Assembly (NCBI RefSeq): GCF_038070105.1
Contig: NZ_JBBPBZ010000006.1
Span: 1-64,000 of the forward strand
Direction: 5' to 3'
DNA length: 64,000 nucleotides
From: Methylocystis sp. IM3
GTDB taxonomy: Bacteria; Pseudomonadota; Alphaproteobacteria; Rhizobiales; Beijerinckiaceae
Shown: piece after piece, positions 2,603 to 53,853 of the stretch
How the letters are laid out: each line of letters opens with the position of its first letter
How positions within the stretch are numbered: the first letter of the stretch is position 1
The notes under the pieces: model-generated
What the model was told of the DNA's origin: nothing
Database searches by the model: none
Seen by the model: only the letters and a program-made list of their open reading frames with translations
Made by a program: the position numbers and the translations under genes

Positions 2603-3394
2603 CTACTGCGTCGATACGGCGCCAGAGGCCGCGACGCTCGCCTGTGGGCGGCGCTGCTGCGGCCCCTGGGCGAGTTGCAGAAGAATCGCCCTGTCGAGCC
2701 GCGCGACGACGGCCAGGCGTTTCAGCTCGCCGGCGTCGAAGGCCTGCAAGAAGACGCTGTAGTCCTTGAAAACCACGCATCCGTTCGAGTCGCCCCTCGG
2801 CCCGAGCATGTAGGTGTGCGCGAGCAGGCCCTTGCGTCCATAGACCTCGCGCTCGTCCAGCGGCTTGAGGCGCAGGGCGCGGACGCCGTGGAAAGGCTTT
2901 TCCCTCAGTTCGAGCGCGTAGACGCTCGGCGGCGTCGGCCCGCGCATGTGCTCATGCACATAGCGGGGATCGTCCATCCTGGCGCCCAGTCCCGAATGCG
3001 CTTCGAGCATCGTTCCATTCGGGAGATAGACGGTATGGGTCGCAATGTCGTAGACGGCCGTCCACCGATCCAGGCCGGGCAGGAGCGCCGGACCGTCGTC
3101 TTCGAAAGACGCCGCCTCGGCCGGCGTCGTGCGCGGCGCGAGATCCTCGGCCGGCAGAGGTTCGGCCGACGACGGACCGGCCGTGCGCATGGGCGCCGGG
3201 CCGAAGAGATCGAATGTGAACGCCGCCCAGACGGCGCCTCCTGCAAGGAGGAGACCCGCTCCGAGACGCCCGGGGGACATTGCCCGCCGGCCAGGCCAGA
3301 CCGTCGCACCAAGACAGACCGTCGCGCCAAGCCAGATCGCCGCGCCGAGCGGCGCGCCGACGAGAAGGATCAGAAAGAATTCCACGCCGTGCAT
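2603..3394 (-). CDS. DUF2778 (tlde1-like) transpeptidase-fold protein
   Basis: 263 aa. The N-terminus carries one or two hydrophobic segments (about residues 5-30 and 43-62), then a linker, then a DUF2778 domain from about residue 105. Recognisable blocks are DIATHTVYLPNG, EAHSGLG, MRGPTPPSVY, PFHGVRALRL and the cysteine block RGDSNGCVVF. This family is related to L,D-transpeptidases and includes the Tlde1 type VI effector, but many hyphomicrobial copies are ordinary envelope proteins. The catalytic-type Cys is present. No immunity-type neighbour is evident, so a housekeeping cell-wall role is more likely than an effector role. Confidence 0.75.
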   Translation of the reverse strand: MHGVEFFLILLVGAPLGAAIWLGATVCLGATVWPGRRAMSPGRLGAGLLLAGGAVWAAFTFDLFGPAPMRTAGPSSAEPLPAEDLAPRTTPAEAASFEDDGPALLPGLDRWTAVYDIATHTVYLPNGTMLEAHSGLGARMDDPRYVHEHMRGPTPPSVYALELREKPFHGVRALRLKPLDEREVYGRKGLLAHTYMLGPRGDSNGCVVFKDYSVFLQAFDAGELKRLAVVARLDRAILLQLAQGPQQRRPQASVAASGAVSTQ

Positions 3395-9325: not shown

Positions 9326-10333
9326 TTGCCTGAATACAAAGTCGTCGGATTGCTCTACACGCGCGCCTGTCCGCTCGCGTGCGCCCATTGCATCACGGAG
9401 TCGTCGCCGCAGGCGAAGGAGCGGATGCGTCTGCGCGAGGCGCGCGACTATTTGCCGGCCATCGCCGGTTTCGGCGCGCAACTGTGTTTCACCGGCGGCG
9501 AGCCCTTCCTGCATTACAAGGACATCGCCGAATTGATCCGCGAGGCGAAACGCCTCGGCCTGCACGTGTCGCTCGTCACCGGAGCCGGCTGGGCGCGCAC
9601 GGAAGCGACGATGCGCGCGAGGCTCCAAACGCTGGTCGACGCCGGACTCGACGGGCTGTGCATTTCATGGGACCGCTATCACGAAGCCTTTGCGAAGGCC
9701 GACGGCGCGGCGACGCTTGCGAAGATCGCCGTCGATCTCGGCGTCAAGGTCAATGTGCGCGCCGTCGTCGCCGCAAAGGGCGACATGGACGCCTATCACA
9801 GGACCTTCGACGGCCTGCCGGTCTCGCCGGACGGACATGAGGTCATCCGGCTGGGACGCGCGACGTCCCTTCCCGAGGACCATTTCAGTTTCGAGGAGGA
9901 GCCGCCGCGCGGGGTCTGCAACACGGTGTTTTCGCCGGTGGTGGAGCCGGACGGAAACGTCTATGTCTGCTGCGGGCCGGCGCGGTTCTGCCGCAGGCCG
10001 TCGCCTCTGCTGCTAGGAAACGCCAGGCAAGAGCCGCTCGAACGGATATTGTCGCGCGCGCTCGAGGATCCAATCCTGGAGATCATCTATAATCTCGGCC
10101 CCTACGGACTCTACCACCTGCTGAAAAGCCATGGGGCCGACATGAGCGCATTCACGCGCCGGGCGGAATATACGGGCATCTGCGAATTGTGCCTCGACAT
10201 CACCGACTCCCCCGAACTGGTCAGCGCCCTTCGCGAGATCCTCAGCGGACGGGACGCCTCGCGGCTTCTCGCGGTGTCGAGATTGTGGAGAACCGCCGCA
10301 TTCGGCGCGGCGCAGCAGCTTGCGCCGGGATGA
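9326..10333 (+). CDS. Radical SAM enzyme with SPASM-like C-terminus
   Basis: 335 aa with a TTG start, chosen because GGAG sits 7 bases upstream and the coding signal begins there. The SAM-cluster motif is C15-PLA-C19-AH-C22 (CxxxCxxC), followed by the GGEPFLHYKD block that binds SAM. The C-terminal third has further cysteines (GVCNTVF, NVYVCCGPARFC, GICELCLD) as in SPASM/twitch domains that bind auxiliary iron-sulfur clusters. SPASM enzymes commonly modify ribosomal peptides by thioether, C-C or epimerisation chemistry. The gene converges on the lasso-type precursor, with 20 bp between stops, so a role in maturing that peptide is the simplest inference, but it could serve another substrate. 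Confidence 0.8.
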   Translation: MPEYKVVGLLYTRACPLACAHCITESSPQAKERMRLREARDYLPAIAGFGAQLCFTGGEPFLHYKDIAELIREAKRLGLHVSLVTGAGWARTEATMRARLQTLVDAGLDGLCISWDRYHEAFAKADGAATLAKIAVDLGVKVNVRAVVAAKGDMDAYHRTFDGLPVSPDGHEVIRLGRATSLPEDHFSFEEEPPRGVCNTVFSPVVEPDGNVYVCCGPARFCRRPSPLLLGNARQEPLERILSRALEDPILEIIYNLGPYGLYHLLKSHGADMSAFTRRAEYTGICELCLDITDSPELVSALREILSGRDASRLLAVSRLWRTAAFGAAQQLAPG

Positions 10334-10353
10334 GCCGATCCCGGACCGGCGCC

Positions 10354-10557
10354 TTAAAGGATCAGACCGCTCGTGCGCAACAATTGCAGGATCGAGAGAA
10401 GCAAGCCTCCATCCAGGGCTCCCGCTGTGCTCAAGCGGAGGGTTATCTCCTTGAGGTCGCCATATTCCCTGAGTTCGGGCGTAGTGTAGACCTGCTTTTG
10501 CACCCGCTTTGGCGCCGCGCCCGGACCGTCCGGACCGCTTGCGGAAAAACTGTCCAT
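10354..10557 (-). CDS. Lasso-type RiPP precursor peptide
   Basis: 67 aa. The leader contains the canonical lasso-leader pattern YxxPxLxxxGxxxxxT as YTTPELREYGDLKEIT (residues 24-39), which PqqD/B1 proteins recognise. The downstream segment is residues 41-67. If the conserved Thr39 is the -2 residue, cleavage falls after Leu40. The core is then 27 residues, beginning RLSTAGALD, with Asp at position 9, suitable for a 9-residue macrolactam ring. The rest of the core is strongly hydrophobic (GGLLLSILQLL). Arg at position 1 is unusual. GGAG lies 9 bases upstream of the ATG. The gene is divergent from the kinase-B2-C-B1 operon. Confidence 0.75.
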   Translation of the reverse strand: MDSFSASGPDGPGAAPKRVQKQVYTTPELREYGDLKEITLRLSTAGALDGGLLLSILQLLRTSGLIL

Positions 10558-10668
10558 GCCGGCTATCTCCGCATGATTTCCCGAGCAGATCGAACCGCGT
10601 GACTGTCTGCTTAAAATCACGCTGAATATGACATATGACTTGCTTGCTCTCAACTGCAAGGGGAAGAA
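10558..10668. promoter_or_regulatory. Divergent promoter region, precursor versus biosynthetic operon
   Basis: This 111-bp AT-richer gap separates the precursor start (minus) from the kinase start (plus) and must hold promoters for both. A TATGACATATGACTTG stretch near 10627 is a possible -10 area, but no confident -35/-10 pairs are called. The kinase ribosome binding site AGGGGA is at 10659-10664. Confidence 0.45.
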
Positions 10669-11625
10669 TTGGCCGCGGCGCTCCCGTTCCGTTACAGTGT
10701 TTACGGCGTGACGCTCGACTCCGACGTCAGCTTCGCCTTGCCCGCGGCGCGCGACGGAGCGACGGGGGACAGGATCAGGATCGCGCGCGGACGGGGCCGC
10801 GAATTCGACACCCGTCTGGCCGGTCTCGCCCTCGACGCCGACGCGCCCGTCCACCAGCTTCTTCTGGAAGACGGCGGCCTCTACATGCGTTGGTCGGGCG
10901 TCTTCGACCTCCTCGTCGCGCCCGACGGCGGCCGCATCTCGTGCCGCAGCTTCGGCGCGCATGCGCTGGACTATGTCGAAGCCTATCTGCTCAATTACGC
11001 CGTCAGCGCGGCGCTTCTCCTGCGCGGCGAGGAAACCTTGCACGCCACCGCCGTCGATATCGGCGGACGCGTCGTCGGCCTGCTGGGGGCGAGCGGCTCG
11101 GGCAAGTCCACGCTGGCCTCGTTCCTGAGAACCAAGGGCGCGCGCATCGTCACCGACGACGTTCTGCGCATCGGCGGCGCCGACGCGCCGCGCGCTTATC
11201 CGGGGCCGCATCGGCTGAAGCTCTTCGACGAATCCGCGACGCGTTTCCTCGCCGGCGCGTCGCCGTCCGGGCGATGGAGCCCGATGCGGGACAAGTTCGT
11301 TTACGATCTCGGCCTCGCGGAGCCCGCCCTTGATCCGCAGCCCCTTGTCGCCCTCTATCATCTGCGGGCGCCGCAGAGCGGCGGCGACGGCCGGATCGCG
11401 CTCACGCGCCTGCGCGGCCTGGAGCTGTTTCGCACGATCGGAGGATCGACGATGAACAATGCGCTGCGCACGCCCGGCCGGCTCGAACGTCATTTCCGCT
11501 TCGTCGAACGCCTGGCGAGACGCCTGCCCGTCCATGCGCTCGCCTATCCGCGCGATTTCGTTTCGCTCGAAGAGGTCGCCGCCGCGATCTTCCGCACGGC
11601 GGACGCAGCAGGGACGGGCGCATGA
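10669..11625 (+). CDS. HPr-kinase-like protein of a lasso locus
   Basis: 318 aa, TTG start supported by AGGGGA 4 bases upstream. The C-terminal half has the P-loop GASGSGKST (residues 140-148) and a VTDDVL Walker-B-like block at 161-166, as in HPr kinase/phosphorylase domains; the N-terminal half is the less conserved region of this family. Homologues in lasso peptide clusters (PadeK, ThcoK types) phosphorylate a C-terminal Ser of the precursor. Here the core has Ser15, Thr22 and Ser23 as possible acceptors but no C-terminal Ser. The stop overlaps the next start as ATGA, so expression is coupled to the B2 gene. Confidence 0.8.
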   Translation: MAAALPFRYSVYGVTLDSDVSFALPAARDGATGDRIRIARGRGREFDTRLAGLALDADAPVHQLLLEDGGLYMRWSGVFDLLVAPDGGRISCRSFGAHALDYVEAYLLNYAVSAALLLRGEETLHATAVDIGGRVVGLLGASGSGKSTLASFLRTKGARIVTDDVLRIGGADAPRAYPGPHRLKLFDESATRFLAGASPSGRWSPMRDKFVYDLGLAEPALDPQPLVALYHLRAPQSGGDGRIALTRLRGLELFRTIGGSTMNNALRTPGRLERHFRFVERLARRLPVHALAYPRDFVSLEEVAAAIFRTADAAGTGA

Positions 11626-12062
11626 GGCGCGCGGCTTTGGCCCGGCGCCGGAGCGCATCGGACTGGCGGCTCTTCACGGAGGCGGCGGCGACGATCGTGA
11701 TCTGCCGCCTTTCTCTGCGGCGGCGAGACTTCACCAAGACGGGCGCCTGGGCCGTCCGGCCGACGCGGCGCGTCGGAGCGGCGCCAGTCGAGCGGCTCGT
11801 TTGGGCGGTCGAAGCCGCGGCGCGCAGGCTGGGCGGCGTGACCTGCCTGTGCAAGGCGCTCGCGCTTCAGCGCATGATGACGCGCGCCGGCCATGTCTCG
11901 GAGCTGAGGATCGGCGTCGATAAATCGGGTGGCGCGCTCCTCGCCCATGCGTGGCTCGTCCACGACGGCGCCGCTCTGGTCGGCGGCCCAGAGGCGGCCG
12001 GCTACACGGTGCTCGCCGCCTGGCGGTCCGACCGGAGCGAGGACGAATGGCGTTTCTCGTAA
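11622..12062 (+). CDS. Lasso peptide B2 protein (leader peptidase)
   Basis: 146 aa with a transglutaminase-like cysteine protease fold. The catalytic Cys is probably Cys75 in TCLCKALALQ, with His109 in LLAHAWL, matching the CLxxALA and AHAW signatures of lasso B2 proteins. In split systems B2 cuts the leader while PqqD/B1 delivers the precursor. It overlaps the upstream kinase by 4 bp and the cyclase by 16 bp, so the three form one translational unit. An unusual point is the second cysteine, Cys77, two residues after the presumed nucleophile. Confidence 0.85.
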   Translation: MRRAALARRRSASDWRLFTEAAATIVICRLSLRRRDFTKTGAWAVRPTRRVGAAPVERLVWAVEAAARRLGGVTCLCKALALQRMMTRAGHVSELRIGVDKSGGALLAHAWLVHDGAALVGGPEAAGYTVLAAWRSDRSEDEWRFS

Positions 12063-13852
12063 TCTTCAACGAAGACGGCGCGCCGGTCGATGACGACCTG
12101 CGCGGCCTCTGGCCGGCGTGCGCCGGGCGCGTCGAGCGCGTCGAGCGCGCATCGGCCGGCGCGCCGCAGCTCGCCATGTTCCTGTCGAACCCGGCGGAGC
12201 TTGGCGACGCCGGCCGCGCCCGCCATGAACAGGCGGGCAAGGACGACGCCCACGACGCCTCCCTGCACGGGCTCGAGCTCATTGGCCGGATCAGGCTCGA
12301 CCGGCGCGACGACATTCGCGCGGCGCTGGGGGCGCCGGCGTCGGCGTCCGACGCCGCGCTGTGCCTGCGCGCCTATGGCCGATGGGGCGACGGCTGCGTC
12401 GATCATTTGCGCGGGGATTTCTGCTTCGTCCTGTGGGACGCGCCGCGCCGACGCCTGTTCTGCGCGCGCGATCAGCTCGGCGTGCGGCCGCTGTTTCACG
12501 CGCAGGCGAAAGGGAGATGGGTCATCGGCGATTCGCTCGACGTCGTCGCGCGCGCGTCGCGCCTCACGAACGAACTCGACGACGCGTGGATCGCGGATTT
12601 CCTGCTCGAACCTTTCTGTCAGGATTTCGAGCGGACGGTGTACAGCCATGTGAAGCGCCTGCCGCCGGCGCATCTGCTCATCGCGTCGCGCGACGGCGGC
12701 GCCATACGGCGATACTGGTCGCTCGAAATCGAAACGCCGCTTTTTCTGCAAAGGCCGCAGGATTATCTCGATCGCTTCCACGAGACGCTGGCGCGCGCCG
12801 TCAGGGATCGCCTTCCGCCGGGAACGGTCGGCGTGACGATGAGCGGCGGCCTCGATTCGACGACGCTCGCGGCGAAGGCCGTCGAGGTCGCGGGCGACGC
12901 GGCGCGCGTCGTCGCCTTCACGAGCCATTTCGAACGGCTCATTCAGGACGATGAAGCGCGTTTCAGCGCGCTCGTCGCGGCGCGGCTGGGACTCTCGCAA
13001 AAATTCGCCGCCATGGACCGCATCTGCGAGCTGCACGCCGAGGCGCCGCATCTCCCCACGGCGGAGCCCGGCGGCCCCACGGCGAAGGCGCCCGCGCGGC
13101 AGGCGATCGAGACCGACATGGCGCGGCAGACGACGGTCTGGCTCTTCGGCGAAGGGCCGGACAATGCGCTGACATTCGAATGGCTGTCTTATCTGCGCTG
13201 GCTCGCCGGCCAGGGCGACTGGCGCCGATTCGCCGGCGCCGTGGGGCGTTACATTCGAGACAAGCCGCCGCGCGACTGGATGCGCGTCCTCGAGGCGCCG
13301 GGACGTCTCGCGCGGCGGATCGACGGCGCGCCGCCAAACGATCCGCCGCCGTGGATCGACGCGGATTTCGCGCGGCGCGCCGGTCTTGCCGAACGCCGGA
13401 CGCAAAGGCTCGCGACAGCGTCTCACCCCTGGCGGCCGGCCGCCATGCGGTCCTTCGCCAGCCCGGTCTGGCAAAGGCTTTTCGAACACATCGACCCCGT
13501 GATTGCGGGCTCGGCGCTCGATTATCGCCACCCCTATCTCGACCTCGACGTTTTGACCTTCATGCTGGCGACGCCGCCGATCCCCTGGGCAAGGCGCAAG
13601 CGCCTGATCCGGGACGCCATGCGCGGCAGGCTTCCCGACGAAATCCTTTCGCGCGACAAAACGCCCCTCGCCGTCGATCCTCTCGCGGTCGCCGCGCGCG
13701 CCGCGACGCCAAGGCCCCTTTCTGCAAACGCGGCGCTGTCGCGCTACGTGGACGCGGCGCGATTGCAGATCGGCGGCGCGGCGCCGACGGCGGTCGAGTC
13801 CCTCGAGAAAGTCAGACTGCTCGACGCCTGGCTCCGCGACCGGCCGCGATGA
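12047..13852 (+). CDS. Lasso macrolactam synthetase (asparagine-synthetase-like)
   Basis: 601 aa. The N-terminal glutaminase-like domain begins MAFLVIF rather than Met-Cys, so the amidotransferase nucleophile is missing, as is usual in lasso C proteins. Blocks such as DHLRGDFCFVLWD and CARDQLGVRPLFH confirm the fold. The synthetase domain has the ATP pyrophosphatase loop SGGLDST at residues 266-272. Lasso C enzymes adenylate an Asp or Glu side chain and close the ring with the N-terminal amine. The ATG at 12047 overlaps the B2 gene; an upstream in-frame start at 11951 would only add shadow sequence. Confidence 0.85.
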   Translation: MAFLVIFNEDGAPVDDDLRGLWPACAGRVERVERASAGAPQLAMFLSNPAELGDAGRARHEQAGKDDAHDASLHGLELIGRIRLDRRDDIRAALGAPASASDAALCLRAYGRWGDGCVDHLRGDFCFVLWDAPRRRLFCARDQLGVRPLFHAQAKGRWVIGDSLDVVARASRLTNELDDAWIADFLLEPFCQDFERTVYSHVKRLPPAHLLIASRDGGAIRRYWSLEIETPLFLQRPQDYLDRFHETLARAVRDRLPPGTVGVTMSGGLDSTTLAAKAVEVAGDAARVVAFTSHFERLIQDDEARFSALVAARLGLSQKFAAMDRICELHAEAPHLPTAEPGGPTAKAPARQAIETDMARQTTVWLFGEGPDNALTFEWLSYLRWLAGQGDWRRFAGAVGRYIRDKPPRDWMRVLEAPGRLARRIDGAPPNDPPPWIDADFARRAGLAERRTQRLATASHPWRPAAMRSFASPVWQRLFEHIDPVIAGSALDYRHPYLDLDVLTFMLATPPIPWARRKRLIRDAMRGRLPDEILSRDKTPLAVDPLAVAARAATPRPLSANAALSRYVDAARLQIGGAAPTAVESLEKVRLLDAWLRDRPR

Positions 13853-13933
13853 GAAAGAACGAGACGCAACGCGCCGCTTCGGTTAGGAGACGAAAGCGCA
13901 AGGCCGTAACCTGCGCCACAGGAGGTGAACTCA

Positions 13934-14209
13934 ATGGATCCAGCCGCCCGCATTCGGCAGGCGAACAATCAGGTCTCCTGCGATCTGGATGAGGAAACCG
14001 TGATCCTCCACCTCGAGAATTCGCTCTATTACGGAACCGATCGCGTCGGCGCCTGCATCTGGGAGGCGTTGCGCCGGCCCGCCCGCATCGACGAGATATG
14101 CGCGGCGGTCATGGAGCGCTTCGAGGTCGACGAAGACCGCTGCCGCGCCGATGTGGCGAAATTTCTGGACCGGTTGCGCGCGGCGGGCCTGCTCGACGTG
14201 ATCGCGTGA
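13934..14209 (+). CDS. PqqD-family lasso B1 protein (precursor recognition)
   Basis: 91 aa of the PqqD/RRE fold: VSCDLDEETVILHLENSLYY, then ACIWEALRRPARIDEICAAV and VAKFLDRLRAAGLLDV. In lasso systems this domain binds the YxxPxL leader motif and presents the precursor to B2. AGGAGG sits 8 bases before the ATG at 13934; an in-frame GTG at 13925 overlaps the Shine-Dalgarno and is less likely. The last 101 bp overlap the tail of the nucleotidyltransferase gene on the other strand. Confidence 0.88.
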   Translation: MDPAARIRQANNQVSCDLDEETVILHLENSLYYGTDRVGACIWEALRRPARIDEICAAVMERFEVDEDRCRADVAKFLDRLRAAGLLDVIA

Positions 14210-15362
14210 GAAGCGTCAGGCCGTATTTGCGCGCCAGCCGCAGATAACGCAGCAGCGCATACAGAAAAAAGAGGCGATCCGGCAGAAGGACGGCGTCGAG
14301 CTCCAGCGGAGTCGGACGCAGGACGGCCGCCGCGAGATAGCGCAGCCTGTCGCCGCGCGGCATGACGGCAAGATAGGTCCACGGTTCGAAAAGCGTCGCC
14401 GGCAGGTCGCGACGCGCGCGAATCCGGCGCGCGATCGCGCAAACGCGTCGATCCGATTCCGCCCACGCCGCCACGGCCGGCGGAAGAGGCGCGGCGAGAG
14501 AGGCGCGCGCGAGGACAAGTCCGAGCTGGAGCATCCGGGGCGCGCCGATCGGCAATCGGCCCGACATCAGCCGGTCCCAGTCGAGATCGGGACGCCGGCG
14601 AATGAAATCGGCGACGTCGCTCATGTGACGAAACGCCGCCCATCCATGCTTGGACCCATGGAAACAGAGATAGCACAGGGTCTCCTCGGGGCCGAAGGTG
14701 AGGATGGAACGGCCGCCGAGTTCGATCGCGCATGTCGCGAGCGGCGCGCGCGCGGCGAAGGAATAATCATTCTCGGTCAGCGCCCAGTGCAGATCGACGC
14801 AGACGCCGGAGACCGGATTCACGAAGCAGAGTTCGTTCGATAGTCTCCGCAGCAGGCGCTCATGGCGCGAAGACGCAAGCGCATGGACCGGCTCATAGCC
14901 ACAGGCCTTCAGCGCGCGCGTCGCGCATCCGAGGCGATCGGGCGGCGCGAAAAGGTCGAGGTCCGAAAATTCCCGCATGAGAACATTGGCGTAAATCTGT
15001 TGCGCCAGAACCGGACCCTTGAACCAAACCGGCCGGAGTCCTTTCGCGGCGAAGGCGCGATCCAGCCGGAGAAGTTCGCCCGTGAGCCAGAGATTGCGGA
15101 AAGCGACCGCCTTGTTGCGGGTTTCAAGCTCGCCGCGAAGCGGGGCCGGCATTTTTCCGCAGGCGAGCGCGTCGATGTGGGCGTGCGCGAGCGGCGCGAC
15201 GCCGTGCCGGATCGCGAGCGCGACAAAACGGCTCCAGTCGAGGTCGCGGCGCGCCGCAAGCTCCTGCGCGCAACGTCGCGCATGGGCGTCGAGACGCGTT
15301 CTGATGCAAAACAGAAGGAGGCGTTGTTCTGGCAGAATATCCAAACCGGCCCATGCGCTCAT
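14109..15362 (-). CDS. Nucleotidyltransferase-like protein of the lasso locus
   Basis: 417 aa of the nucleotidyltransferase family common beside PqqD and HPr-kinase genes. It shows WFKGP around Lys115 and the metal-binding pair Asp134/Asp136 in EFSDLDLFAP. Homologues occur with kinase genes in some lasso clusters, where nucleotidylation of the peptide has been proposed; the reaction is inferred here. It is transcribed toward the B1 gene and overlaps it tail to tail by 101 bp. The last 35 or so residues (after about 14213) are Arg/Pro-rich and may be a non-conserved read-through. The start has only a weak ribosome binding site. Confidence 0.75.
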   Translation of the reverse strand: MSAWAGLDILPEQRLLLFCIRTRLDAHARRCAQELAARRDLDWSRFVALAIRHGVAPLAHAHIDALACGKMPAPLRGELETRNKAVAFRNLWLTGELLRLDRAFAAKGLRPVWFKGPVLAQQIYANVLMREFSDLDLFAPPDRLGCATRALKACGYEPVHALASSRHERLLRRLSNELCFVNPVSGVCVDLHWALTENDYSFAARAPLATCAIELGGRSILTFGPEETLCYLCFHGSKHGWAAFRHMSDVADFIRRRPDLDWDRLMSGRLPIGAPRMLQLGLVLARASLAAPLPPAVAAWAESDRRVCAIARRIRARRDLPATLFEPWTYLAVMPRGDRLRYLAAAVLRPTPLELDAVLLPDRLFFLYALLRYLRLARKYGLTLLTRSRRAGPPRATGPEISPHRRGSGLRRPRSAP

Positions 15363-15712: not shown

Positions 15713-17998
15713 ATGCGCGCGAACGGAAACCGCGAGATGAGCGATGAGCCTCGCCGCCAACCGCCGGCCGAACGCGACGCGCCCGCGCGCGGCCTGACGG
15801 TGGGCGGGTCCTACAGCCCGCGGGAGGGATATCGTTACGCCGACATCGCCGCCTCGCTCGTGGAAGGCCCCGCCGCCGATCTGCGCAAGCTTCTGCGCCT
15901 GCTCAAAAAGCGGAAATGGCTGATCTGCGGGATCGCCGTCGTCGTCGGCCTCGCGGGACTCATGCGGGCGCTCATGCAGGAGCCGCTCTACGCATCGACG
16001 GTTCGGCTGCAACTGAACCGCGGCATTTCCACTTTCGGCAAGAACGGCGGGTTCCAGCTCCTCGAAATCGACGAGTCCTGGTTCGACACCGAAGTGGAGC
16101 TCCTCAAGAGTCGCGATCTCGCCGAACGGGTGGCCGCCATGACGCAGACGCGAGGCGGCGGCGGCGTGGCGTCCGGCGGCCCGCGCCGCGCGGTACGCAC
16201 AGCCGAACCATCCGAGCAGGAGCTTGCGACCGAGACGATCCTCGCCCATGTCGCGGTCGCGGCGCTCAAGCCGACGCATCTCGTGGACATCACCGTCACC
16301 GATCGCGATCCGGCGCGCGCGCAAGGGATCGCCCGCGCCTATGGCGAGGCGTCCCTCGCGGTCAATCGCGACAAGCGGCTCGAGGCCAACGCCGACGCCA
16401 AGACCCTGCTCGAAGATCAGATCAAGCAGCTCAAGCATCGGCTCGAGGACGCCGACAAGGCCGTGCTCGCCTTTGCGGAAAAGGAACGCATCGTCAGCAC
16501 CAACGACAAGGTTTCGGTCGCCGAGAGCAATCTCTCCGCCGCCAGCGCCGCGCTGAGCGGCCTCATCGCCGAGCGCATCAGAAACGGGGAGCTCTGGCGC
16601 CAGGTCGAAGACGAATCGAAGGACCTGCCGCAAATCCTCGCCAACAAGGCCGTCGAGGAGCTGCGCAGCCAGCGCCGACAGATTCTCGCCGAGTATCGCG
16701 AAAAGTCCGAGACCTTTCGCTCGGACTATCCGACCATGATCCAGCTCAGGGGCAAGCTCCAGGAAATCGACCGCCAGCTCGCCGCCGAGGTGAAAACCGT
16801 CAGAGCCTCGCTGAAAGCCGCCTATGAAGCCTCGCTGCATCAGGAAGGCGAGATGCGGCAGAGAGTCGACAAGCTGCGCGGCGAGATGCTCGAACTGCAA
16901 AGACACGGCATTCAGTACAACATCCTGAAACACGACGCGGACGCGACGCGCTCGCTCTACGACAGTCTGCTCGAGCAGTACAAGCAGCTCGACATCGGCG
17001 GCGGCGGCGCGAGCCGGGTGCTTGTCGTGGGCAAGGCGCGGCTCCCGCGCGCGCCGATCCGGCCCGATCCCCTGAAATGGTTTCTGATCGGCCTTTCGCT
17101 CGGGCTCGGCGTCGGCGTCGCCCTCGCCTGGGCTCTGGACCATGCCGACGACCGCGTCCATCTGCCGCCCGATGCGGAACAGGCGTCGGGCCTGCCGCTG
17201 CTCGGCGTCATTCCGAGGCCGAGCCGCAAGCACAGTTTCGAAACCGAAGCCGAGAATCCCGCGTCAGCCGTCTCCGACGCCTTTCGCGCCGTCTGCCTGC
17301 TGCTGCGCTTCTCGACGCAACACGGCGTGCCGAAAACGCTGATGGTCACGAGCGCCAATCCGGCCGAGGGAAAATCGAGCGCCTCGCTCGGCATCGCGCG
17401 CGAATTCGCCGCCATGGGCCTCAAGGCGCTCGTCATCGACGCCGATCTGCGCAAGCCGTCCCTGCATGTCAAAACCGGGCTCGGCAACAGCGTCGGGCTC
17501 ACCACCTATCTGTCGCGCAATTGCGGGGTCAACGACGCCATTCAGCCGTCCGGACGCGACAATCTCTTCGTCATGACCTCGGGCCCGACGGCGCCCAATC
17601 CGGTGGAGCTTCTCAGCGGCCCCCGCTTCGCCTCGCTGCTTACGGGAAGCGGCGAGGTCTTCGATCTCGTGGTCGTCGACGCGCCGCCGGTGATGGGGCC
17701 GGCGGAGACGCTTCTGCTGTCCAACACGGTGGCGGCCACGGTGCTGATCGTCGCCGCCGGAGAGACGCGGATCGACCAGGCGCATAATGCGGTCAGATTG
17801 CTGCAACAGGCCCGCGCCACGACGCTCGGCGTGGTGCTCACCAAATTCGACGCCAGCGCGGGCTATGGTTACGGCTATGGCTATGGCTATGGATACGGAT
17901 ACGGGCGCGAGGACAGGGAAGAGGCTGGCGCGGACGCGCCGGAGGAACTCGCTTCCCCGGCGCGGCCGTCGTCCGACGCGCCGCCCCTCATGGGATGA
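15713..17998 (+). CDS. Wzz/BY-kinase polysaccharide tyrosine autokinase
   Basis: 761 aa. The N-terminal Wzz domain is bounded by membrane helices near residues 66-85 and 450-470, with a long periplasmic coiled coil between. The cytoplasmic kinase has an A-type P-loop SANPAEGKSS (547-556), Walker A' LVIDADLRKP (573-582) and Walker B LVVVDAPPV (652-660). The C-terminus has a tyrosine cluster made of repeated GY units (about 717-731), the usual autophosphorylation tail. Such ExoP/Wzc-type proteins control chain length and export of exopolysaccharide. No glycosyltransferases lie next to it, which is unusual. An alternative ATG eight codons in is possible. Confidence 0.88.
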   Translation: MRANGNREMSDEPRRQPPAERDAPARGLTVGGSYSPREGYRYADIAASLVEGPAADLRKLLRLLKKRKWLICGIAVVVGLAGLMRALMQEPLYASTVRLQLNRGISTFGKNGGFQLLEIDESWFDTEVELLKSRDLAERVAAMTQTRGGGGVASGGPRRAVRTAEPSEQELATETILAHVAVAALKPTHLVDITVTDRDPARAQGIARAYGEASLAVNRDKRLEANADAKTLLEDQIKQLKHRLEDADKAVLAFAEKERIVSTNDKVSVAESNLSAASAALSGLIAERIRNGELWRQVEDESKDLPQILANKAVEELRSQRRQILAEYREKSETFRSDYPTMIQLRGKLQEIDRQLAAEVKTVRASLKAAYEASLHQEGEMRQRVDKLRGEMLELQRHGIQYNILKHDADATRSLYDSLLEQYKQLDIGGGGASRVLVVGKARLPRAPIRPDPLKWFLIGLSLGLGVGVALAWALDHADDRVHLPPDAEQASGLPLLGVIPRPSRKHSFETEAENPASAVSDAFRAVCLLLRFSTQHGVPKTLMVTSANPAEGKSSASLGIAREFAAMGLKALVIDADLRKPSLHVKTGLGNSVGLTTYLSRNCGVNDAIQPSGRDNLFVMTSGPTAPNPVELLSGPRFASLLTGSGEVFDLVVVDAPPVMGPAETLLLSNTVAATVLIVAAGETRIDQAHNAVRLLQQARATTLGVVLTKFDASAGYGYGYGYGYGYGYGREDREEAGADAPEELASPARPSSDAPPLMG

Positions 17999-26711: not shown

Positions 26712-28340
26712 TCAGGCGGGCGGGGGCGCTCTCCCGATCAGGAAACAGGTCTCCATCCGGCCCTTGCCCTTGACCTCGAGGCTGCCGCGCGGCTCCAGAA
26801 CGAACGCGCCGCCCAGGCGCTCGCAGGTGGATTTCGACACATGGATGCGGCCGGGCAGGCTGTTGGCCTCGAGCCGGCTCGCGACGTTCACCGTATCGCC
26901 CCAGATGTCGTAGATGAACTTGTGCGCGCCGATGACGCCGGCGACGACGTCGCCGGAATTGACGCCGATCCGGATTTGCAGCGTCGCCGGCAGTTCCGCG
27001 TTGAGCCTGCCGAGGGTTTCGATCATCTCCACCGCCATGTCTGCGACGGCGTGGGCGTGATCCTCCCGCTTGCCGAAAAGCCCGCAGGCGGCCATGTAGG
27101 CGTCGCCGATGGTCTTGATCTTCTCGACGCCGAATTTGAGCGCGAGCGCGTCGAAGGCCGAGAAGACCCGGCTCAATATGTCCACGAGCCTGGCGGCCGG
27201 CAGCGTCGAGGACAACTCGGTGAAGCCGACGAAATCGGCGAACAGGATGGTGACGTCGTCGAGATGATCGGCGATCACCGTTTCCCCGCCCTTCAGACGC
27301 TCGACGGTCGGCGCCGGGAGAATGTTGAGGAGAAGCTTTTCGGATCGCTCCTTCTCGATCCTGAGCGCCTCCAGCGCCTCGCGCTCGCGGTCGCGCAGGC
27401 GCTTCTTCTCCAGCGACGATCCGATGCGCGCGCGAAGCAGCACGGGATCGAAGGGCTTGGCGAGATAATCCTCGGCGCCGGCTTCGACGCATCGGACGAT
27501 CGAGTCGATCTCGTTGAGCGCCGAGATCACGATGACGGGAATGTCCCTGAGCGACGCGTCGGACTTGAGCGCCGAAAGGACGTCGAAGCCGCTCACGTCG
27601 GGCATGAGCAGATCGAGCAGAATGAGATCGAACGGCGCCTCCCTGACGAGCGCGAGCGCGCGCGCGCCGTTTTCGGCGAGCGTCACCGCATGGCCCTGCC
27701 GTTCGAGACGCCGCTTCAGAAGATCGCGATTGGAGGCGTTGTCGTCGACGACGAGAATGCGGCTCGGCAGCTGCGCGGCGTCGTCGGCCTCGCCTTCCGC
27801 GATCGGCTGCACGGATGCGACGAAGCGGTCCGCCACCCGCGCCGAGACGAGCCCCGCGCCCGCCTCCGCCGGGTCCGCGCCCTCGCTTTGGGGCAGCGAG
27901 AAGCTGACGAGGCCGTCGATGCGTTCGAGAAAGCGGGACGCCTCCTCGAGGAGCCGATCGAGATCCGTGACGAGGCCGCCGGCGTCGACGAGATCCGCCG
28001 CGTCCTCGCGCAGCATCTCGCCATACCCCTTGATCGCATTGATGGGCGTGCGCAGATCGTGCCGCAGGCGCCGGCGATAGTCCTCCGGATCCTCGTCAGC
28101 CTCTTTCTCGCGCGCGCGGAGCGGGCTGAACGGATCGACGAGAGACGCGATGAGCGTGCTCAGCGAGCGGCTGGCGAGCCTGATCTTCTCGAGATCCTCC
28201 CGGAACTGGGCCTGATCGTTCTTTCCCGCTTCGTCGAGCAGGATCTCGACATAGCCCGCGATGGCCTCGGCGGGCGCGCTCAGCTCCTGCCGCACATAGG
28301 CGATCAGCGCGCGATCCGTCCTGTCGGCGACGCGGGTCAC
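26712..28340 (-). CDS. Receiver-adenylate cyclase with HisKA-like N-terminus
   Basis: 542 aa, GTG start overlapping the upstream receiver gene stop as GTGA. Residues about 85-145 are a HisKA-like helix pair with H94 in RHDLRTPIN, without an ATPase domain. A receiver domain spans 194-305 with phospho-acceptor D243 (LLDLLMPD) and KPFD near 295. A class III nucleotide cyclase occupies about 350-510: metal Asp369 in FADFVGF and Asp413 in IGDAY, with K409 in EKIKTIGD specifying ATP. It therefore probably makes cAMP when phosphorylated, as the output of this operon. Confidence 0.9.
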   Translation of the reverse strand: MTRVADRTDRALIAYVRQELSAPAEAIAGYVEILLDEAGKNDQAQFREDLEKIRLASRSLSTLIASLVDPFSPLRAREKEADEDPEDYRRRLRHDLRTPINAIKGYGEMLREDAADLVDAGGLVTDLDRLLEEASRFLERIDGLVSFSLPQSEGADPAEAGAGLVSARVADRFVASVQPIAEGEADDAAQLPSRILVVDDNASNRDLLKRRLERQGHAVTLAENGARALALVREAPFDLILLDLLMPDVSGFDVLSALKSDASLRDIPVIVISALNEIDSIVRCVEAGAEDYLAKPFDPVLLRARIGSSLEKKRLRDREREALEALRIEKERSEKLLLNILPAPTVERLKGGETVIADHLDDVTILFADFVGFTELSSTLPAARLVDILSRVFSAFDALALKFGVEKIKTIGDAYMAACGLFGKREDHAHAVADMAVEMIETLGRLNAELPATLQIRIGVNSGDVVAGVIGAHKFIYDIWGDTVNVASRLEANSLPGRIHVSKSTCERLGGAFVLEPRGSLEVKGKGRMETCFLIGRAPPPA

Positions 28341-28711
28341 GAAGCGCCGGAAGCGAGCAGCGCCGTGATCTTGCCCAGGAGCCGCGTGATCTCGACCGGC
28401 TTGGTGTCGTAGTCCTCGCAGCCCGCCTCCATCGCCTTCTCGCGATCGCCGGCCATGGCGTGGGCCGTGAGCGCGATCACCGGGATCTTTCGCGTCGCGT
28501 CGTCCTGCTTCACCCGCCGCGTCGCCTCCCATCCGTCGATCACCGGCAGGCTCATGTCCATCAGGATCAGATCGGGCGCTTCCGAAGCGGCCATCTCGAC
28601 GCCCTGCTGTCCGTCGACGGCGATGACGACGTCGTAGCCGTTGCGCTTGAGGCGTCTCGACAGCATGTCCCGGTTCATCTCATTATCTTCGACAAGCAGA
28701 ATCTTCGCCAC
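28337..28711 (-). CDS. Single-domain response regulator
   Basis: 124 aa CheY-like receiver. Visible residues are the acidic pair EDN near the start, the phospho-acceptor Asp in LILMDMSLP, the switch Thr in ALTAHAM and Lys in DTKPVE. The GTG at 28711 has GAGGGAGAG 8 bases before it. It lies between the hybrid kinase and the receiver-cyclase and overlaps the latter by 4 bp. It probably relays or competes for phosphate in that pathway. Confidence 0.9.
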   Translation of the reverse strand: MAKILLVEDNEMNRDMLSRRLKRNGYDVVIAVDGQQGVEMAASEAPDLILMDMSLPVIDGWEATRRVKQDDATRKIPVIALTAHAMAGDREKAMEAGCEDYDTKPVEITRLLGKITALLASGAS

Positions 28712-50647: not shown

Positions 50648-52129
50648 CTAGATCGTTGAGTTGACCGGGATCAAAAGCTCGATCGTCTGGCCGGCGCCGC
50701 CCGCGAGCACCTTCATGAAGAAGGACTGCGAATATTTCAGATTGCCGGGCGTCGTCGCGTCGTCCCAGGTGTCGTAGGAGCTGCCGTTCCAGATCCAGAT
50801 CTGCTTGCTCACATAGCCGGCCGCATCGGCGGCGGTCGGCGTATAGACCGTGCCGGACGCGCCCCCGACGCGGATGCGGACCTGCGACCATGGGATATCG
50901 TAGCCGAAGGGATTGCCGAGCATCCGCGATCCCGCCGTCGTCGAACCGACCGCGACCACGACACAGCCGACGAGCGACTGGCAGCCGGAGACGCCGGTCG
51001 TGGGCGCCGCCGCCGCGCCGGCGACCGTGAGCTTGCCGTTGAGCGGCGCGGAGAAGCTCTTGATCCAGTAGCCTGCGCCGCTGCCGAGCGTGTCCGAAGA
51101 GGTCAGCAGCGTATTGCCGCTGTTGGTGGCGTTGCGCCCGTAGAGCGCCCATTGAGCGTTGTAGGTCGCGGCCGAAAGATTGGCGGTCGGGGCGTTGCCG
51201 AGCACGCTGGCGACGCTCGCCGGGCTGGCGCTCGCCGCGCAGGGCGTCGCGAACTGCCGCCAGTCCCCCGCCGTATAGGCGAGGCCGTCGCCGCAGTCCG
51301 TTCCCGAGGTCATGACGCGGTTGGTTCCGTCGAGCGAGACGGAAACGAAGCGGCCGCTGCCATAGGCGACGCCCGTCCAGACGTTGGCCGCGATCCCGGT
51401 GCGGGCGGTCCAGGCAATCCCGTCCGGGCTCGTCATCACCCGATTGCCGCTCCCGCTGGTGGCGACCGCCACGAACTGTCCGGCGCCATAGGTGACGCTT
51501 CTCCAGTTGTTGTCGACGGGGGACCGGCTGGTCCAGGCAATTCCGTCGGGGCTCGTCATCACGCGGTTGCCCGCCCCGGAGTTCGAGACCGCCACGAACA
51601 GGCCGGCGCCATAGGCGACGCCATACCAGTTGTTGCTTGCCGCCGCCGTGCGGGCGGTCCAGGCAATCCCGTCCGGGCTCGTCATCACAGCGCCGGAGCC
51701 GCCGACCGCCACGAACAGGCCAGCGCCATAGGCGACGCTCGCCCAGCCGTTGCTTGGGACGGCGCGGCTGGTCCAGGTGATCCCGTCCGGGCTCGTCGCC
51801 GCAAGGCCGCCGCCGCCAACCGCTACGAACAGGCCATTGCCATAGGCGGCGCCCTGCAAATTGACCGATGCGGCCATCGTGCGGGTGGTCCAGGTAATCC
51901 CGTCCGGGCTGGTCATCGCCCTCGTGCTGCCAACCGCCACGAACAGGCCAGCGCCATAGGCGATCCCACGCCAACTATTGCTCACCGAGGCGGTCCGGCC
52001 GATCCAATCGACGCCCGTCGTCGCCCGCGCCGGGAACGCGCCGAGGAGCGCAAGGAGAGCCGCGACGACGAGCGCCGGCCATCGCGTTTTCGTCAAAAGC
52101 GGCCGGCCGGATGCGCTCGGGAAAATCAT
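50648..52129 (-). CDS. Secreted repeat (propeller-like) protein, copy 1
   Basis: 493 aa. The signal peptide is LVVAALLALLGAFPARA. Six repeats of about 40 residues follow, each of the form W-x-x-V-x-Y-G-x-G-x-F-V-A-V-x with MTSPDGIxWTxR; this suggests a beta-propeller. After the last repeat (SGTDCGDG) comes a conserved C-terminal module of about 230 residues with GSGAGYWIKSFSAPLNG, GNPFGYDIPWS and the end IELLIPVNSTI. The three copies share this module almost exactly. Function unknown; surface adhesin or sugar-binding protein is plausible. Confidence 0.8.
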   Translation of the reverse strand: MIFPSASGRPLLTKTRWPALVVAALLALLGAFPARATTGVDWIGRTASVSNSWRGIAYGAGLFVAVGSTRAMTSPDGITWTTRTMAASVNLQGAAYGNGLFVAVGGGGLAATSPDGITWTSRAVPSNGWASVAYGAGLFVAVGGSGAVMTSPDGIAWTARTAAASNNWYGVAYGAGLFVAVSNSGAGNRVMTSPDGIAWTSRSPVDNNWRSVTYGAGQFVAVATSGSGNRVMTSPDGIAWTARTGIAANVWTGVAYGSGRFVSVSLDGTNRVMTSGTDCGDGLAYTAGDWRQFATPCAASASPASVASVLGNAPTANLSAATYNAQWALYGRNATNSGNTLLTSSDTLGSGAGYWIKSFSAPLNGKLTVAGAAAAPTTGVSGCQSLVGCVVVAVGSTTAGSRMLGNPFGYDIPWSQVRIRVGGASGTVYTPTAADAAGYVSKQIWIWNGSSYDTWDDATTPGNLKYSQSFFMKVLAGGAGQTIELLIPVNSTI

Positions 52130-52269: not shown

Positions 52270-53853
52270 CTAGATCGTTGAGTTGACCGGGATCAAAAGC
52301 TCGATCGTCTGGCCGGCGCCGCCCGTGAGCACCTTCATGAAGAAGGACTGCGAATATTTCAGATTGCCGGGCGTCGTCGCGTCGTCCCAGGTGTCGTAGG
52401 AGCTGCCGTTCCAGATCCAGATCTGCTTGCTCACATAGCCGGCCGCATCGGCGGCGGTCGGCGTATAGACCGTGCCGGACGCGCCCCCGACGCGGATGCG
52501 GACCTGCGACCATGGGATATCGTAGCCGAAGGGATTGCCGAGCATCCGCGATCCCGCCGTCGTCGAACCGACCGCGACCACGACACAGCCGACGAGCGAC
52601 TGGCAGCCGGAGACGCCGGTCGTGGGCGCCGCCGCCGCGCCGGCGACCGTGAGCTTGCCGTTGAGCGGCGCGGAGAAGCTCTTGATCCAGTAGCCTGCGC
52701 CGCTGCCGAGCGTGTCCGAAGAGGTCAGCAGCGTATTGCCGCTGTTGGTGGCGTTGCGCCCGTAGAGCGCCCATTGAGCGTTGTAGGTCGCGGCCGAAAG
52801 ATTGGCGGTCGGGGCGTTGCCGAGCACGCTGGCGACGCTCGCCGGGCTGGCGCTCGCCGCGCAGGGCGTCGCGAACTGCCGCCAGTCCCCCGCCGTATAG
52901 GCGAGGCCGTCGCCGCAATCCGAGCCCGAGGTCATGACGCGGCTGGTTCCATCGAAGGAGACGGAAACGAAGCGGCCGTTGCCATAGGCGACGCCCATCC
53001 AGGTGGTGGCCGCGGGCGCGGTGCGGGCTGTCCAGGTCACGCCGTCCGGGCTCGTCATCACGCGGGGGCCGGTGCCGGCGTAGGCAACCGCCACGAACAG
53101 GCCGTTCCCGTATGTAACCGAGCGCCAACTGGAGGCGAGGCCGCTCCGGCTGGTCCAGGTCGTCCCGTCCGGGCTCGTCATGACCGCGCCGTTGGTTCCA
53201 ACCGCCACGAACAGGCCGGCGGCATAGGTGACGCCATAGCATGTGCTGCTGAGTGCGGAGGTGCGGCTGGTCCAGGAAATCCCGTCGGGGCTCGTCATCA
53301 CGACGCCGCTGACGCCAACCGCCACGAACAGGCCGGCGGCGTAAGTGACGCTTTGCCAGCCGCCGCCAGAAGCTGGCGTGCGGCTGGTCCAGGTGACCCC
53401 GTCCGGGCTCGTCATCACGCCGCCGCCGCTGGCGACCGCCACGAACAGGCCAGCCCCATAGGCGACGCCGTACCAATTGTTGGATGGGACGGTGCGGCTG
53501 GTCCAGGTGACCCCGTCCGGGCTCGTCGCCGTGGAGCTGGCGCCAACCGCCACGAACTGGCCGGCGGCGTAGGTGACGCCATACCAGGTGCTCAAGGGAA
53601 ACGTGCGGCTGGTCCAGACGACCCCGTCCGGGCTCGTCATCAGCGTGGAGCCACTGCCAGTCGCCACGAACAGGCCATTGCCATAGGTCAGCGCACGCCA
53701 GGGGGCGGCGATTCCGGTCCGGGCGGTCCAGTCGACGCCCGTCGTCGCCCGCGCCGGGAACGCGCCGAGGAGCGCAAGGAGAGCCGCGACGACGAGCGCC
53801 GGCCATCGCGTTTTCGTCAAAAGCGGCCGGCCGGATGCGCTCGGGAAAATCAT
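52270..53853 (-). CDS. Secreted repeat (propeller-like) protein, copy 2
   Basis: 527 aa. The signal peptide is identical to copy 1 (WPALVVAALLALLGAFPARA). Seven repeats follow, more divergent at the start and closest to copy 1 at the last unit (RFVSVSFDGTSRVMTSGSD). The C-terminal module is nearly identical to copy 1 at the DNA level. It lies 140 bp upstream of copy 1; the spacer is also repeated. Recent duplication or gene conversion is likely. Confidence 0.8.
   Translation of the reverse strand: MIFPSASGRPLLTKTRWPALVVAALLALLGAFPARATTGVDWTARTGIAAPWRALTYGNGLFVATGSGSTLMTSPDGVVWTSRTFPLSTWYGVTYAAGQFVAVGASSTATSPDGVTWTSRTVPSNNWYGVAYGAGLFVAVASGGGVMTSPDGVTWTSRTPASGGGWQSVTYAAGLFVAVGVSGVVMTSPDGISWTSRTSALSSTCYGVTYAAGLFVAVGTNGAVMTSPDGTTWTSRSGLASSWRSVTYGNGLFVAVAYAGTGPRVMTSPDGVTWTARTAPAATTWMGVAYGNGRFVSVSFDGTSRVMTSGSDCGDGLAYTAGDWRQFATPCAASASPASVASVLGNAPTANLSAATYNAQWALYGRNATNSGNTLLTSSDTLGSGAGYWIKSFSAPLNGKLTVAGAAAAPTTGVSGCQSLVGCVVVAVGSTTAGSRMLGNPFGYDIPWSQVRIRVGGASGTVYTPTAADAAGYVSKQIWIWNGSSYDTWDDATTPGNLKYSQSFFMKVLTGGAGQTIELLIPVNSTI

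Follow-up and report, generated by a model that had tools for sequence, protein, structure and literature searches.

Clusters for lasso peptides of the pseudomycoidin (psm)/paeninodin type comprise, as described in reviews, a precursor gene, the genes for B1, B2 and C, an HPr-kinase-like K with the residues His, Lys, Asp and Asp, and a nucleotidyltransferase-like gene. Review text names the His-Lys-Asp-Asp motif of the lasso kinases and gives the C-terminal Ser as the site expected for paeninodin-type kinases. The same kind of source records D residues in lasso peptides only for the MS-271/specialicin group, where the C-terminal D-Trp of MS-271 is made by MslH, and lists radical S-adenosylmethionine (SAM) epimerases apart from MslH. 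The latter are exemplified by the epipeptide system YydF-YydG (EpeX-EpeE) of Bacillus subtilis; according to two reviews, YydG epimerises Val and Ile, carries a second [4Fe-4S] cluster and has Cys223 as its proposed hydrogen donor (PMC8326336; PMC5682303). Relatives of both kinds of machinery meet in a locus of the alphaproteobacterium Methylocystis sp. IM3, at positions 9326-15362 of the analysed stretch, which is the first 64 kb of contig NZ_JBBPBZ010000006.1 (C6) and is termed the window below. It is proposed, as the probable though far from certain reading, that this locus makes a lasso-type peptide with a tail rich in Leu, Ile and Val, and that a captured radical SAM enzyme of the YydG/EpeE lineage epimerises this tail.

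The locus opens with the gene for the YydG/EpeE-like radical SAM/SPASM enzyme (9326-10333, + strand), a 335 aa protein with a TTG start (PF04055, E 6.4e-12; PF13186, E 8.1e-5). The 67 aa lasso precursor follows on the opposite strand (10354-10557, -), with the leader motif YTTPELREYGDLKEIT and a predicted 27-residue core, and is separated from K by a divergent intergenic region (10558-10668) that, judging from the layout, is likely to be a promoter region. K (10669-11625, +, 318 aa) matches Hpr_kinase_C with an E-value of 1.5e-5 and 25.1 bits, below the gathering score of 33.3. Next come B2, the transglutaminase-like lasso leader peptidase (11622-12062, +; NF033537, 68.7 bits against a cut-off of 33), and the asparagine-synthetase-like lasso cyclase C (12047-13852, +; PF00733, E 1.3e-21), which has an SGGLDS motif at residues 266-271 and scores below the cut-off of 525 bits in lass_lactam_cya (E 1.6e-66, 225 bits). 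B1 is a PqqD-type leader-binding protein, that is a RiPP (ribosomally synthesised and post-translationally modified peptide) recognition element (13934-14209, +; PqqD, E 4.7e-20), and its end is overlapped on the other strand by the gene for a nucleotidyltransferase-like NTP_transf_5 protein (14109-15362, -; PF14907, E 2.1e-57). The first-pass annotation of this DNA had described a lasso-like locus with just these components, and every one of them was found in its place. The locus is not a chance assembly, since the neighbourhood of radical SAM enzyme, precursor and K was found again in four further loci.

Linkage of the radical SAM gene to the precursor

A search of 397 genomes of the family (E 1e-10) returned relatives of the radical SAM enzyme in 12, of which four hold close copies at five places and eight hold distant ones (best E 3e-26). 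The close copies are that of the window itself and four that are 58-99% identical to it, namely L003 in a genome of the same species (G694), L004 in one of the same genus (G743), and L048 and L049, both in G589. A search of genome contigs with the enzyme confirmed L003 (99%), L004 (61%) and the distant L005. At all five close loci a homologous precursor lies directly downstream of the radical SAM gene on the opposite strand, tail-to-tail with it, and K stands beyond in divergent orientation. Homologues of B1, B2 and C are all present in L003, L004 and L048; L049 stops at a contig end inside K. It had been suggested from the first reading that the radical SAM enzyme is a partner in the lasso-like locus, and the linkage of every close copy to a homologous precursor bears this out.

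That the enzyme is instead an unrelated neighbour with a substrate of its own is highly improbable. Such a reading could appeal to the opposite strands of the two genes and to the unrelated loci in which distant relatives occur. These relatives (~23-31% identity) adjoin other genes at eight loci of the family and in seven of the 16 plasmid records that matched in PLSDB, all 16 being less than 60% identical, so that no close copy was found in that database; context was looked at for the seven, of which L032 is unannotated. At 1e-3, each of these 15 loci (L050-L057 and L028-L034) has at most one match to a lasso gene. Such lone short matches (4e-4 to 7e-4) are to K in L057 and L030 and to B2 in L031, and the six annotated plasmid loci have other neighbours, for example CRISPR genes or, immediately upstream, a hypothetical gene. 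In these six (L028, L029, L030, L031, L033 and L034) a hypothetical open reading frame (ORF) of ~130-245 aa directly precedes the distant YydG-like enzyme and may be its substrate. Against an unrelated neighbour stands the fact that radical SAM gene and precursor have stayed together at every close locus in two genera, both loci of G589 among them, while the other genes are rearranged, B1 lying upstream of the radical SAM gene in L004 and apart from it in L048.

The base rate points the same way. Among 397 genomes of the order, NF033537 finds B2 in 26, at 33 places, with up to 10 candidates scored per genome. An ORF of at least 180 codons with the pattern CxxxCxxC...GGE was present within 8 kb on either side at none of the 31 B2 places in the 25 other genomes, three of these stretches being shortened by contig ends and some overlapping (e.g. 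L102/L107); the chromosomal B2 locus of the genome itself, L023, has no such ORF either. The same pattern recovered 14 of the 15 distant relatives. Coincidental proximity was set aside on the two counts of 5/5 linkage and 0/31 base rate. An order-wide search with the radical SAM enzyme (E 1e-30) returned only the genome of origin (1/397), in a sample that holds few members of the family.

A profile of K (397 genomes of the family, E 1e-20) found six genomes, namely the four that carry the close radical SAM copies together with G631 (L065) and G526 (L066). No radical SAM match was found in the 19.9-kb stretches of L065 and L066. In a tree of K built from 19 of 20 rows (the K of L049 being excluded) the four rows from radical SAM-bearing loci form one clade (100/99), to which L065 is sister (99/98). 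Gene content and linkage show a real, conserved set of lasso-type clusters, few in number and forming one clade, that carry a YydG/EpeE-lineage enzyme. The accessible text of the open-access PMC literature, including PMC9266682, PMC8498205, PMC8326336, PMC5682303 and PMC10352776, showed no radical SAM enzyme in a lasso cluster, which is not proof of absence.

The radical SAM enzyme and its predicted substrate

The enzyme carries the motif CPLACAHC in addition to a SPASM region, and eight cysteines (C15, C19, C22, C198, C215, C216, C286 and C289) are invariant in the five sequences. C15, C19 and C22 are the radical SAM cysteines, and C198, C215, C286 and C289 are probable auxiliary ligands, although the phmmer alignment sets C198 one column away from the cysteine of EpeE. 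The best solved relatives are YydG/EpeE, aligned over residues 6-300 (PDB 8ai6/8ai1/8ai3, E 9e-18 to 2e-16). C216 is the equivalent of Cys223 of EpeE and forms an invariant CC pair with Cys215. PDB titles show that Cys223 and Asp210 of EpeE have been mutated, Asp210 in a solved structure. Each of the four sequences tested (window, E 3.8e-24 and 85.7 bits; L004; L048; L049) has the YydG epimerase model TIGR04078 as its best NCBIfam match. A structure model of the enzyme from an alignment of three rows was poor (predicted local distance difference test 57.8, predicted template modelling score 0.54) and served for a fold search only and not for geometry; matches 1-9 of that search were EpeE. Together these comparisons point to membership of the YydG/EpeE epimerase lineage, with which the enzyme shares the donor Cys and the C-terminal cluster cysteines. 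Unlike that of YydG/EpeE, its substrate would be a peptide with a lasso leader, and B1, B2 and C are present.

The leader YxxPxLxxxGxxxxxT is present in all five precursors linked to the radical SAM enzyme, two of which have Ile for Leu. NCBIfam leader models match the four precursors tested, all under their cut-offs; that of the window reaches 22.0 bits in lasso_cyano (cut-off 33) and 18.7 bits in lasso_leader_L3 (cut-off 19). The core is predicted to begin after Thr(-2)-x(-1), in the window after the T-L that closes the leader. The precursor ORF is a genuine gene, because the codon pattern between L004 and L048 (42 codons: 13 identical, 18 silent, 11 changing) fits a coding sequence. Within the species, the precursors of the window (10354-10557) and L003 (6513-6716) differ by four amino-acid-changing and no silent codons out of 68, the stop included, as compared with 14 changing and 33 silent codons summed over six other genes, in a comparison that left out C. 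The one-sided chance of this 4/0 pattern is ~0.012 by a hand count of few events, and it gives only a hint of diversification of the precursor within the species. Two of the four changes lie in the predicted ring, at core positions 1 and 7.

Asp9, Gly6 and the motif LRTS are invariant in the five cores. Asp9, an Asp/Glu at core position 7-9, is the predicted acceptor of the lasso ring. None of the five cores contains Cys, Phe, Trp, Tyr or His, and two of 14 control cores likewise lack Cys and aromatics. The five are more hydrophobic than the controls, with a grand average of hydropathy (GRAVY) of 0.90-1.13 as against values from -2.08 to 0.51. The controls include L065, L023 and several near-copies, and some of them (e.g. 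L111, L122) are probably not precursors. A motif was used to pick them out in 33 loci, which gave 15; L103 was dropped for want of D/E at positions 7-9, leaving 14 from 11 loci. A sactipeptide/ranthipeptide thioether or an aromatic cross-link was considered and set aside because the cores lack the residues needed. The sister cluster L065, which has no radical SAM gene, has Asp9 in a hydrophilic, Cys-containing core (GRAVY -1.33) and offers a ready comparison. The hydrophobic tail and the radical SAM enzyme occur together, within one clade.

It is conceivable that the lasso-type enzymes yield an unthreaded product, a plain macrolactam or other amide, and that this hydrophobic product exerts its effect in the membrane or at the cell surface. 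This is judged improbable. The residue at core position 1 varies, the very hydrophobic tail has no aromatic plugs, and genes of the exopolysaccharide type lie near several loci, all of which would suit such a product. In all five cores, on the other hand, the spacing between the leader Thr and Asp9 is the canonical one for a lasso ring, and L065 also has Asp9; C has its SGGLDS motif, and B2 exceeds its NCBIfam cut-off.

Several findings weigh against epimerisation of a lasso-type peptide in this locus. Asp210 of EpeE aligns with Ser203, which is invariant in the five sequences, so the chemistry could have shifted. The TIGR04078 scores (85.7, 77.0, 76.7 and 81.2 bits) lie far under the equivalog cut-off of 300, and the same model is also the top one, with 78.3 bits, for L053, a distant relative outside any lasso setting; the model therefore does not single out the lasso-linked group, and the family name alone is no proof of an epimerase. 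At core position 1 the five loci have R, T, A, Q or S, and none has Gly. The C-terminal Ser that known lasso kinases target is absent from all five precursors. The close copies are few and confined to one family (4/397 genomes), and two of the five loci come from G589, which is 86% complete with 6% contamination. Because the radical SAM-bearing loci form one clade, the link between hydrophobic tail and enzyme counts as one evolutionary event.

The first two of these points, together with the hydroxyl groups that the invariant LRTS supplies, leave some room for a different action on the precursor, such as ether formation that joins a Thr/Ser oxygen to an alpha carbon, cyclopropanation of Ile/Val or a C-C link, with C still cyclising. 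Such chemistry is considered unlikely. The closest solved enzymes by both sequence and model are EpeE and the Cys223 donor is kept, whereas the best 25 of 48 NCBIfam models for the window enzyme include none named for an ether- or cyclopropane-forming enzyme.

Proposed maturation, tailoring and export

In the proposed lasso-type pathway with epimerisation, B1 would bind the YxxPx(L/I)xxYGDLKxxT leader and the radical SAM enzyme would take the alpha hydrogen from at least one Leu/Ile/Val of the hydrophobic core. Cys216 would then give a hydrogen back from the other face to leave D residues. B2 would cleave after the leader, and C would activate Asp9 and join it to the new amino terminus, closing a nine-residue macrolactam. 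Several enzymes would in this way act on one peptide, as the first-pass annotation, which did not name the chemistry, had supposed. In B2, Cys75 and His109 are invariant in four aligned proteins.

K has His125, Lys146, Asp163 and Asp164 invariant in three aligned homologues, and by our own residue assignment these are the His-Lys-Asp-Asp catalytic set. Six of the 14 controls (L100, L105, L107, L110, L113 and L114) have cores with TFS at the C terminus and lie close to a K homologue, the arrangement to be expected with a paeninodin-type kinase. The precursors of the radical SAM-linked loci, in contrast to those of psm/paeninodin-type clusters, lack the C-terminal Ser modified by such kinases, and LRTS may be the site of K, which would phosphorylate its Thr or Ser. 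By analogy with pseudomycoidin the nucleotidyltransferase may add to the LRTS phosphate. This protein is 31-33% identical to two aligned relatives and is the most divergent shared part, the other parts reaching at least 41%.

No ATP-binding cassette (ABC) exporter is present among the eight ORFs scanned in the locus and beside it, in agreement with the first-pass annotation. The locus differs in this respect from the psm/paeninodin-type clusters, as it does by its additional radical SAM gene and its alphaproteobacterial host. In L048 the gene for an ABC exporter stands between those for the transferase and B1. The chromosome of the strain itself encodes a related one (55% identical, C2:3363866-3365608, the best of 14 matches) inside L023, and export could go through it in trans.

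Like MS-271 and specialicin, as reviews describe them, the product would be a lasso peptide that bears D residues made by a dedicated epimerase, although in the present case epimerisation is only predicted. The two would differ in the site of action. MslH, which to our knowledge is not a radical SAM enzyme, works on a C-terminal aromatic residue, and the cores described here have none. If the proposal is correct, D residues would be possible inside a lasso chain and not only at its C terminus, raising the question of how a tail so altered passes through the ring, and the clade would show two RiPP maturation systems combined in nature. More tentatively, and with slightly less than even confidence, it may represent the first lasso lineage to use a radical SAM epimerase for maturation, with internal D-Leu, D-Ile or D-Val in the tail, possibly a phosphate or phospho-sugar on LRTS, and the character of a membrane-active lasso/epipeptide hybrid.

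Genomic setting and neighbouring genes

Contig C6 has 155,113 bases and is one of six contigs of the 4.9-Mb genome. It is probably a plasmid, because ScpB genes, in two records also DUF1403, at ~6.8-8.4 kb match Methylocystis plasmids (8/25 records). A Rfam gathering search of the window gave no RNA features, and no tRNA was found in it.

The cluster is flanked by a Wzz/tyrosine-autokinase gene of the exopolysaccharide type (15713-17998, +), for which membership of the pathway is not claimed and which has a Gly-Tyr repeat run near its C terminus (~17861-17905). Exopolysaccharide-type genes recur beside the clusters, with a tyrosine autokinase in the window, L003 and L023, sugar-nucleotide and glycosyltransferase-like ORFs near L004 (identified by eye from translations) and a WsaF-like protein near L049. 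L023 (G000:C2:3357000-3376000) is a second lasso-like cluster on the strain's own chromosome, comprising a precursor with a YARPELTVYGTVKKLV leader, K, B1, B2, C, a nucleotidyltransferase and the ABC exporter; beside it lie an O-antigen-ligase-like gene and the gene for a tyrosine autokinase that shares 50% identity with that of the window.

Elsewhere in the window, two adjacent long ORFs (50648-52129 and 52270-53853, both -) share their first 40 residues (MIFPSASGRPLLTKTRWP...), perhaps through a recent tandem duplication. An ORF at 26712-28532 (-) combines HisKA, response regulator and adenylate/guanylate cyclase domains, and a Tlde1-domain protein (PF10908, E 2.8e-27) is encoded at 2603-3394 (-).

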